NCBI RefSeq assembly: GCF_000238795.1
Contig: NZ_AFNK01000006.1
Location: 1 to 64,000, forward strand
Direction of reading: 5' to 3'
Length of the DNA: 64,000 bases
DNA from: Haemophilus sputorum CCUG 13788
GTDB lineage: Bacteria; Pseudomonadota; Gammaproteobacteria; Enterobacterales; Pasteurellaceae
Shown here: one piece after another, positions 34,798 to 38,374 of the stretch
Numbering within the stretch: position 1 is the stretch's first letter
How the letters are laid out: every line of letters starts with the position of its first letter
Program-made: the position numbers and the translations under genes
The notes under the pieces: generated by a model
The model's input: the letters and a program-made list of their open reading frames with translations, nothing else
The model's database searches: none
Told to the model about the DNA's origin: nothing

Positions 34798-35262
34798 TTA
34801 TTCAATAATTACTAATTTTTGATCGAATTCAACAGCTTCGCCATCATTCACTAAGATAGCTTTTACTACACCGGCTTTATCTGATTCGATACGGTTCATC
34901 ATTTTCATTGCTTCAACAATACAAAGTGCATCACCTACTTTTACTGACTGACCTACTTCGATAAATGGTTTAGCATCTGGGCTTGGACTACGATAGAAAG
35001 TACCAACCATTGGAGAAAGTACTGCATGACCGCTTACTTCATTATTTGCTGGTGCAGCTGCTGGTGCACTTGGCGCTGCGGCTGGTGCAGCCGCTGGAGC
35101 TGCAACAGGTGTTGGCGCAGCAGTATATTGTACTGCAGGTGCTGCCACCACTGGTGCTGCACGACTAATACGTACTGTACCTTCTTCTTCAGACACTTCT
35201 AACTCAGTGATGCCTGATTCTTCAACTAATTCGATTAATTTTTTGATTTTGCGAATATCCAT
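34798..35262 (-). CDS. accB: Biotin carboxyl carrier protein (BCCP)
   Basis: The 154-aa protein has an N-terminal segment [20 protein letters not shown], then an Ala/Pro-rich flexible linker (about residues 35-75). The biotinyl domain ends the protein, with the biotinylated Lys in [13 protein letters not shown] (about residue 120) and a thumb region [17 protein letters not shown] carries the carboxybiotin between AccC and AccAD. The length is close to E. coli AccB (156). A GC-rich hairpin lies in its leader. Confidence 0.97.
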
Positions 35263-35523
35263 AATGAAATTCCGTCAAGTGTATTAAGAAATGGATGCCG
35301 TCCATCAAATATAGACGGCGGAAAAGATGTGCGTAGGTTACCTGATTTTCGGCAATTTTGCGAATAAAATCTTCTAAAATTGGCGAAAGTTTGCTGAATT
35401 TACCACTCATCGTAGCAGTTATTTTTCAACCAATTTGCCCTAAATAGGACAGATAAAATTCCAAATTTATGCCATACAAGCGGTCATATTTTCGTAAAAA
35501 TTTCCAAAATAGGTGCTTATTTC
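35263..35523. other. accB upstream region with leader hairpin
   Basis: The 261-bp gap holds a hairpin GCCGTC...GACGGC (35297-35319) about 35-57 bp before the accB start, and an uptake core at 35476. A 62-codon open frame (35222-35410, minus) overlaps the accB start, but it has no recognisable similarity and I do not call it a gene. The hairpin may belong to accB leader control. Confidence 0.45.
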
Positions 35524-35661
35524 TTATTCTTCATTGAATACCATAAAGGCAATTCCTCTTCGTTCAGCAATTTGGCGTTTATGTTTCCAAATGCGTTGAA
35601 TTCGGCGGAATTTATTGCAAGTTAACGTTTTTTTGGGTTTCAGGCGCAATTTGCGTTTCAT
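35524..35661 (-). CDS. Small basic protein overlapping the 3' end of mltF
   Basis: The 45-aa frame is too short for usual gene finders: [20 protein letters not shown], then [20 protein letters not shown], then VFNEE. ATG at 35661 has GGAG six bases upstream (GGAGTTGAAGATG). It lies inside the last 50 bp of mltF in another frame on the same strand and continues 88 bp beyond the mltF stop. About 16 of 45 residues are Lys/Arg, suggesting nucleic-acid or ribosome binding. The extension beyond mltF stays open and basic, which is unlikely for random A/T-rich DNA. It may correspond to a small uncharacterised Pasteurellaceae family (possibly DUF5363), but I cannot confirm this. Confidence 0.62.
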
Positions 35662-37066
35662 CTTCAACTCCTATTTGTTTTTCTTGATTTTTTTGTTCTT
35701 CTATACGCTGATGATTCACAATACTGTTGTAATATCGACGAATATTTTCAACATACTGCAACGCTTCAAAACCACGCGCATAGCCATATTTTAGTCCAGT
35801 ATAATGTCGTTTTTCAGCCAATAATGGTAAGTTTTTCTTTACATCTAACCAATTATCCGGATCGCCACCAAGCTGACGGGTTAAACGGCGTACATCTAAT
35901 AAATGACCTAAGCCCATATTATACGCCGCCAAGGCGTACCAAATTCGATCTTCTTGAGCGATAGTTTCGGGAATTTGACTAATCAAAAGGTGCAAATATT
36001 CCGACCCACCTCGGATACTCTGCTCTGGATGCGTTCTATCTGTTACTCGCATTCTTTCTGCGGTATCTTTCGTTAGCATCATAATCCCACGAACACCTGT
36101 TGGAGAGGTCGCATTCGGATCCCAATGTGATTCTTGATAAGCAATGGCAGCCAGCATTTGCCATTCCAGGTCGCCTTTATATTTTTCAAAAATCGGTTGA
36201 TATTTCGGCAATACCTCTCGAATAGCTTGAAGATAACTCTGGGCATCAACATAGTCAAACTTATTGAGGTAGCTAAAATATTTTTCCTCAATTCGAGCAA
36301 TTAACCCTGTATCATTTGCTTCGCCCATAAATTCAAGCACAGCCGCTTGTAATTCACTGTAAGTACTTTTCGGCAAATACCATAATACAGGCGCTTCATC
36401 CGTTAAATCAAAACCGACGGCAATTTTCGGGCTAATATGTTGCGCAGCAGAAATATCTACGGAAGTTGCCACTGTATAAGGAATTTTCCCTTCTGCAACT
36501 TGGATCAAAAGCTCTTCTTGTTCTGCTTCTTCCGCAATTCGCCAGTTAAGATTTGGGTTTTCTAATTTAAGTCGTTGTAGAATAGGTAAAACTGCCGAAC
36601 CTTTAGGAATAACAAGCTCTTGCTTAAGGTCAGCTAAGCGATAAGGGCGAGGGGTATCTTTACGGTAAACCACCTGCCATGAGGTTGAATAATAGCTTGC
36701 ACCAATCTGAAATTGCTCACTTAATCGATCTTGATACAACAATCCTGCTGCGGCAATATCAATTTCATTTTCTTTTAAAGCCTTGAAGATTTGTTCGCTA
36801 TTATCAAACGCTTTAATTTCTAAATTCACATTAAGATATTCAGCAAACGCCTTGGCTAGCTCATAATCAATTCCCGCCTTACCTTCTGCACCAACGAAAT
36901 AAGAAAGTGGGTGGTTAATTAGCCCCACCCTCAATATTTTACGTTGTTGCACTTGAGTATGACGATTCTCTTCGGCTAGCATGACTTTTTGCCATGGATA
37001 AACCATATCCCATGCCCAAAGTAGCAAAGCAAATCCAATGAAAAATCGAATCAATAAGCCTTTCAA
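35612..37066 (-). CDS. mltF: Membrane-bound lytic murein transglycosylase F
   Basis: The 484-aa envelope enzyme has a hydrophobic N terminus (about residues 1-20). An ABC-type solute-binding domain follows (about 43-270; [34 protein letters not shown]), and then the SLT catalytic domain (about 295-450). The catalytic Glu is in [20 protein letters not shown] (about 309-328), followed by [13 protein letters not shown] and [14 protein letters not shown]. It cleaves peptidoglycan to 1,6-anhydro muropeptides. It lies 9 bp downstream of the FAD oxidoreductase gene, and its 3' end overlaps a small gene. Confidence 0.95.
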
Positions 37067-37075
37067 ATCAGCCTC

Positions 37076-38374
37076 TTATCTATATTTGTCTAAGAATCGG
37101 TAGTAAAGCATGCCTATTTTCAGCGCCAATTTTTTACCTAACTTACCGCCAGGAATACTCGGTACTTTTAAACCTTCAAAAATAGCCAAACGCTCATCAT
37201 TGCCTTCAATCGCCTCAGCAATAATTCGCCCAGCAAGCCCTGTTAAAGCAACACCATGCCCAGAAAAACCTTGCGCAAAATAGACGTTTGGTTTTACTCG
37301 ACCAAAATGTGGAGTAGCATTAAGCGTCATATCAATCGGCCCAGCCCAACCATAATCAATTTTTGCGGTTTCTAGCTGTGGGAATACGGCTAACATCTCT
37401 GAACGCATTTTTGCAATCATATCCACATTCGTACTCGAATCTGAACCGAATAATAAGCGATTATCTGCGGACAAGCGGTAATAATCTAAGAAAATATTGT
37501 TATCACATACCGACATGCCATTATTGATTAAGCTATCCGCCATTGCTTGAGAAAGGGGTTCAGTCGCAATAATAAAACTTTCTACTGGTAAAATTTTCTT
37601 CTCAATACCAAAAGTAATTCGTTTTGAAAGGGCATCGATATAAGCATTTGTAGCTAATACCACGTTTTCACAAGAAACTGCAAAACCTTCTGCAAAAACG
37701 ACCGCTTGCGTATCGCTATTTATTTGAATATCGGTAACCGGTGAATGTTCAAAAATGGTTACACCTAATTGCTCGCATGCTTTGGCAAGCCCAAGGCAAT
37801 AATTTAACGGATGAAGATGCCCTGAGTTGCTATCAAATAAACCGCCAACATAAATATCGCTACCGACATGTTGCTGCAACTGAGATTTATCCCATAACTG
37901 CATATTTTGATAGCCAAAAGTTTCTCGACTGGCTTTCTCCATTGCAATTAAGTCATCCATTCGACGTGAATTAAGCGCTAAAGTTGCATAACCCTTCTTC
38001 CAATCACATTGAATACCATATTTTTTTACACGCTCGTCAATGATATCAATCGCTTCAAGTGACATTTCCCAAAGTTTTTTTGCTTTCTCAAAGCCAACCT
38101 GTTCAATATATTCATCAATGCCTTCTTCAAAACCATTGATTGCCTGCCCGCCAGAACGTCCAGAAGCGCCAAAGCCAACACGAGCGCCTTCTAACACAAT
38201 CACTTTTTTGCCTCGTTCAGCGAGCTCTAATGCAGTGGAAAGCCCTTGAAAGCCAGCACCAATAATGCAAACATCACAAGATTGCGGGGAGGAAAGACGC
38301 GGAAATTGAAGATTAAGATTTCGAGTATCAAAATAGTAAGATTTATAGTGTTCTTGGTATGCAAAATTCAGCAT
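37076..38374 (-). CDS. FAD-dependent amine/amino-acid oxidoreductase (DAO family, PuuB/OrdL-like)
   Basis: The 432-aa enzyme has the dinucleotide-binding fold CDVCIIGAGFQGLSTALELA (about residues 33-52) and VIVLEGARVGFGASGRSGGQ (about 56-75), where the GASGRSGGQ motif is typical of gamma-glutamylputrescine oxidase-like proteins. The C-terminal YFAQGFSGHGVALTGLAGR (about 374-392) contacts FAD. No puu genes are adjacent, so polyamine use is not proven. It is the first gene of a two- or three-gene unit with mltF and the small basic ORF. Confidence 0.85.
   Translation of the reverse strand: MLNFAYQEHYKSYYFDTRNLNLQFPRLSSPQSCDVCIIGAGFQGLSTALELAERGKKVIVLEGARVGFGASGRSGGQAINGFEEGIDEYIEQVGFEKAKKLWEMSLEAIDIIDERVKKYGIQCDWKKGYATLALNSRRMDDLIAMEKASRETFGYQNMQLWDKSQLQQHVGSDIYVGGLFDSNSGHLHPLNYCLGLAKACEQLGVTIFEHSPVTDIQINSDTQAVVFAEGFAVSCENVVLATNAYIDALSKRITFGIEKKILPVESFIIATEPLSQAMADSLINNGMSVCDNNIFLDYYRLSADNRLLFGSDSSTNVDMIAKMRSEMLAVFPQLETAKIDYGWAGPIDMTLNATPHFGRVKPNVYFAQGFSGHGVALTGLAGRIIAEAIEGNDERLAIFEGLKVPSIPGGKLGKKLALKIGMLYYRFLDKYR

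Follow-up and report, generated by a model that had tools for sequence, protein, structure and literature searches.

Within the 64,000-nucleotide stretch of Haemophilus sputorum CCUG 13788 DNA analyzed here (the window), the minus strand carries mltF and, at its 3' end, a short open frame for a basic protein (Table 1). We identified mltF by its match to the NCBIfam equivalog NF008112, which scored 646.5 bits where the model's cut-off is 354; PMC4577129 lists mltF as HI0232. Because mltF stops at 35612, the small frame begins inside mltF and continues 88 nt beyond its stop. Rereading the DNA bore out the initial annotation of this arrangement, including the ribosome site, the ATG, the 45-codon frame, the start inside mltF, and the extension past the mltF stop; the location of both genes on the minus strand, which that annotation did not state, is added here. 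Its description of the product as very basic was also accurate, with Lys or Arg at 16 and acidic residues at 3 of the 45 positions. The start of accB (NCBIfam BCCP) lies 261 nt downstream of the small gene on the same strand. A scan of positions 35200 to 37300 detected no minus-strand site resembling a terminator downstream of the small gene.

Table 1. Features at the mltF 3' end in the window.
Feature	Coordinates	Strand	Remarks
Small basic protein gene	35661-35524	minus	45 codons plus stop; ATG at 35661
AGGAG ribosome-binding site	35672-35668	minus	6 nt before the ATG; read from the sequence
mltF, membrane-bound lytic murein transglycosylase F	35612-37066	minus	longest frame, from a TTG; start provisional
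Overlap of mltF 3' end and small gene 5' end	35612-35661	minus	50 nt, different frames
ACAAGCGGTC element	35476-35485	plus	between the small gene and accB

The ACAAGCGGTC element, which we take to be the Apl-type DNA uptake signal of Pasteurellaceae, occurs 19 times in the window against 0.07 expected by shuffling. As a separate observation, eight genomes of genus g7 have a different small basic gene near mltF, on the opposite strand (cluster C9, which includes L157 among its Haemophilus loci). We presume this gene to be ArfA-like; it gave no NCBIfam match at E 1e-10.

Distribution of the small gene across the Pasteurellaceae

A search of 140 Pasteurellaceae genomes with the window protein gave 30 genomes with a match at E up to 0.01. 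Twenty-nine of these 30 matches were at places where mltF lies, no more than 110 nt from the point at which a long frame on the same strand ends; the lone exception was a weak match in G110, whose true copy is located elsewhere, after mltF. MltF was detected in 134 of the 140 genomes, and we read 125 of the corresponding mltF 3' regions, with the other nine covered by a whole-genome profile search. Using a profile iterated on its own hits, we found a homolog directly downstream on the mltF strand in 118 of these 125 regions, 100 of them in round one (18 sequences, E up to 0.05) and the rest in round two. Since its own hits were used for training, assignment of the deepest members of this set depends partly on position and not on score alone. 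For the 22 genomes that remained or were unresolved, whole-genome profile searches yielded nine more adjacent copies and two detached ones (in G146 and G147). The small gene is present in 129 of the 140 genomes, representing 39 of 43 genera, and in 127 of these 129 carriers it adjoins mltF just downstream on the same strand. Named carriers include Actinobacillus, Mannheimia, Bibersteinia, Otariodibacter, Aggregatibacter, Rodentibacter, Cricetibacter, Haemophilus, Testudinibacter, and Chelonobacter. The comparison of mltF 3' regions proposed in the initial annotation found the small frame kept family-wide beyond the mltF stop.

Among 27 records returned by a scan with MltF, the small frame was downstream in all 19 records from Pasteurellaceae (one copy being partly masked by N) and in none of the eight from other families. 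An order-wide profile search of 295 genomes gave 23 with a match, only one of which, G345, was outside the Pasteurellaceae. We judged the G345 match (E 4.4e-4, model positions 22 to 46 only) to be probably spurious, short of proof; another register is open just before it and presumably encodes a transporter. Within the Pasteurellaceae, G022 (E 0.004) and G131 (E 0.055) gave weak matches that lie against long frames of other proteins, and these were likewise judged spurious. A plasmid collection queried with the Haemophilus aegyptius protein gave no match.

The small gene is absent from 5 of the 134 genomes with mltF, four of one genus and one of another, indicating that it is dispensable over evolution. 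In the four genomes of the same genus, the gene after mltF is presumably rph. Six genomes (G094, G130 to G133, and G022) had no mltF at E 1e-5, and the small gene was also absent from all six. Four of these six co-absences fall in one genus, and the pattern is compatible both with a link to mltF and with loss of a two-gene unit.

Selection and start sites support a coding gene

Frames of 45 codons are common in this region of the window according to the open-frame list, and the size of the small frame is unremarkable by itself. What places the frame beyond chance is its conservation together with selection confined to its own frame and not seen in the other two. For analysis of coding evidence, we used 117 homologs, omitting L046 because of a run of N. 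In each of the 22 genera represented by at least two distinct sequences, the pooled pN/pS of the small gene was low (0.013 to 0.385), although these values are rough since several genera are approaching saturation at synonymous sites. As a three-frame control, we compared pairs of equal length, which covered 21 genera. The true frame had a pN/pS of 0.0 to 0.513 and was the lowest of the three in all 21 genera, with the upper value coming from genus g11, which rose from 0.313 to 0.513 on this set. The other two frames gave pN/pS values mostly near or above 1.

The start region pointed in the same direction. One of four SD 4-mers preceded the start in 115 of 117 homologs, compared to 6.1% of random positions. 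An ATG start was assigned in 116 of 117 homologs, but partly by construction, as start choice was scripted with a preference for an ATG near the profile match and a few genes were corrected by hand. These findings indicate that the small frame is almost certainly a genuine protein-coding gene and that it is probably translated. The initial annotation had proposed such a gene, and we found the frame kept across the family under purifying selection; the opposite pattern, a frame broken in relatives with constraint limited to mltF, was not seen.

Overlap with mltF varies among genera

We measured start position relative to the mltF stop in 116 homologs, additionally omitting L073, which has a stop in its mltF frame. 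The earliest start lay 71 nt before the mltF stop and the latest 106 nt after it. Of the 116, 24 overlapped mltF, 68 were located 0 to 20 nt after the stop, and 24 were further away. An overlap of 20 nt or more, as in the window, occurred in only 6 of 38 genera, so that overlap-driven coupling is not a general rule. The earlier suggestion that the overlap couples translation of the two genes gained no support from these positions; across the family, the largest class of starts follows the mltF stop. The long overlaps probably reflect drift in the position of the mltF stop and not a conserved means of coupling.

Within the 50-nt overlap, the small frame was more alike than the mltF tail in all three pairs from the window genus (9/16 versus 6/16, 9/16 versus 5/16, and 16/16 versus 13/16 identities). 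Counted by position within the codons of the small frame, the differences were 5/5/6, 5/5/8, and 0/0/3, with a third-position excess clear only in the last pair. In genus g52, both frames were about equally conserved, with mltF ahead in one of four pairs and the small frame ahead in one of four. The overlap gives no sign that the mltF frame alone matters, although by itself this is weak evidence; the weight of the coding argument lies in the genes that do not overlap mltF.

In G146 and G147, mltF lies elsewhere, and an intact small gene was found between ruvB, approximately 62 nt upstream, and a bamD-like gene. In all 12 other members of this genus that we read, the order was mltF, small gene, and bamD. 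A rearrangement split mltF from the small gene, and both stayed intact; because G146 and G147 are close relatives, we count them as one event. The idea of an SD relic in these genomes was dropped, as the intact gene was found elsewhere and the neighbors show the split (L237 and L236).

Properties of the small protein and searches of family libraries

Across the family, the protein is 44 to 54 residues long, with Lys and Arg averaging 33% (28 to 42%) and Asp and Glu averaging 3%. Five residues (Lys8, Arg20, Lys28, Arg34, and Phe39 in window-protein numbering) are conserved in at least 90% of the 44 sequences aligned. AlphaFold placed a single C-terminal helix at residues 17 to 44 of the window protein and 14 to 49 of the H. 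aegyptius protein, with mean pLDDT values of 75.5 and 75.8, respectively, a core block at 94 in both, and pTM values of 0.41 and 0.44. These models suggest, with moderate confidence, a flexible basic N-terminal tail followed by one C-terminal helix. We considered an amphipathic helix, but the comparison with shuffled sequences did not support the idea, as no amphipathicity was detectable (mean z of 0.31, positive in 25 of 39 genera). Inspection by eye revealed no evident export signal or membrane span.

Scans of Pfam and NCBIfam with the window protein and 44 homologs gave nothing over cut-off. A profile of 44 rows had no match among PDB sequences at E up to 5, and PHROGs gave nothing over cut-off, with three families reached by one member each (best E of 0.027). 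DUF5363 (PF17320), named in the initial annotation as a candidate family, was rejected. The small frame did not match it up to E 10, and its one match in this genome is another gene on another contig (G000:C9) with an unrelated product. DUF5363 resembles the small family in being small and mostly from Pasteurellaceae (21 of 41 genomes over cut-off in our sample), but its product in this genome is not rich in basic residues, unlike that of the small gene. A match to the Tn7 TnsA-like N domain (PF08722; 18.7 bits, E 0.0027) was below the gathering cut-off of 26.5 bits, and only 1 of 44 homologs matched the model; we rejected it as well. No paper on the small gene was found among the literature matches listed, in a search limited to main texts and largely to freely available papers. 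The small gene is almost certainly a genuine, family-wide gene of the Pasteurellaceae that is uncharacterized.

A possible role for the small protein and alternative explanations

The small protein may be a cytosolic, basic, mostly helical protein that binds a polyanion, a cytosolic site being in keeping with the lack of an evident export signal or membrane span. Due to its charge, its few acidic residues, and its helical prediction, the most likely ligand would be RNA or the ribosome. In this model, the gene would be the last cistron of the mltF unit, probably sharing a transcript with mltF, and would be translated from its own ribosome-binding site. The protein could then work like the small basic ribosome-associated proteins, of which RMF and Sra are examples. 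It would resemble RMF and Sra in size and high positive charge, and differs in that our Pfam and NCBIfam scans of the small protein and its homologs returned no such family. The proposed function derives from composition and a single predicted helix, a weak basis. As a whole, the reading of a genuine small basic gene that is the last cistron with mltF and encodes a polyanion binder is tentative, with a chance of being correct that we put somewhat short of even, and we hold the RNA- or ribosome-binding role a little more loosely.

Other explanations need to be weighed against an RNA- or ribosome-binding protein. That the frame is open by chance, or that its conservation is carried by mltF or an RNA element, might be suggested by the 50 nt inside mltF in the window. 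However, 92 of 116 homologs do not overlap mltF, pN/pS is low in the true frame alone, and a homolog follows mltF in 118 of 125 regions, so that this explanation is already contradicted and extremely improbable. The short, basic product encoded 261 nt upstream of accB in the window would fit a leader or arrest peptide that regulates the gene after it, but the nearest downstream frame of at least 60 codons was on the opposite strand in 94 of 118 regions; in 22 it was on the same strand, and 2 regions had no such frame. These downstream frames fall into 48 sequence clusters, and those named by NCBIfam include dsbB, bamD, mutT, a stress-associated lipoprotein gene, gltX, rpsF, and, in the window, accB. 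Due to this variability, the small gene is not the leader of one particular gene. Conserved residues are also spread along the whole protein rather than limited to the C terminus, and a leader function is contradicted and scarcely credible. The small protein might instead act in the cytosol on MltF or on cell-wall turnover, as a partner or regulator whose gene stays next to mltF for joint production. Such a role would account for adjacency to mltF in 127 of 129 carriers and for absence in all six genomes without detectable mltF. We nevertheless consider such a partner unlikely: MltF is an envelope enzyme, whereas no export signal is evident in the small protein, mltF occurs without the small gene in five genomes, both genes are intact but apart in G146 and G147, and four of the six co-absences represent a single genus.

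The small protein might also be a distant relative of the enterobacterial YciY family that shares the YciY role, which would be compatible with either RNA or ribosome binding or partnership with MltF. In PMC4909307, a Venus fusion to E. coli YciY was used as a positive control for translation. The two families are alike in length (approximately 45 to 60 residues), in being very basic, and in a similar C-terminal order of basic and hydrophobic residues. Three of 44 small-family members matched NF033701 at E up to 1 (best E of 6.1e-4). The profile-profile score of 16.8 was above those of all 300 column-shuffled YciY profiles (largest, 16.1) and all 300 column-shuffled small-family profiles (largest, 12.8). 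This resemblance, weak but dependent on column order, is the one lead from our searches. Against a relationship, the hhalign probability was only 8 to 9%, none of five homologs matched when rescanned singly, and the lead had been selected from a whole-library scan of 44 sequences. The curated NF033701 cut-off of 30 bits was reached by no small-family member seen and by none of the Pasteurellaceae genomes, in which three weak matches were at other places; NF033701 was over cut-off in 19 genomes, all in family f18. The RWRMLRQ and RWLE N-terminal blocks in an alignment of 13 YciY sequences are absent from the small-family alignment. The genomic neighbor also differs, as a gene that we take to be clsA is near yciY in all five loci read and the small gene instead follows mltF. 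In family f10, a YciY-like gene below cut-off (L198 in G033; E 6.9e-6) also has a clsA-like gene nearby. Because of the low hhalign probability, the failed single rescans, and a cut-off that was never reached, we did not file the small protein as YciY, and descent from a common ancestor with a shared role seems unlikely. A combined possibility, in which an RNA- or ribosome-binding small protein shares its origin with YciY in one wider superfamily with a common role, appears quite unlikely.

An RNA- or ribosome-binding protein encoded beside mltF remains our tentative preference. For the Pasteurellaceae, a family of commensals and pathogens of humans and animals, a small protein found in 39 of 43 genera and unmatched over cut-off in Pfam and NCBIfam represents a gap in annotation. 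A deletion of mltF or a transposon insertion near its 3' end may affect two genes.
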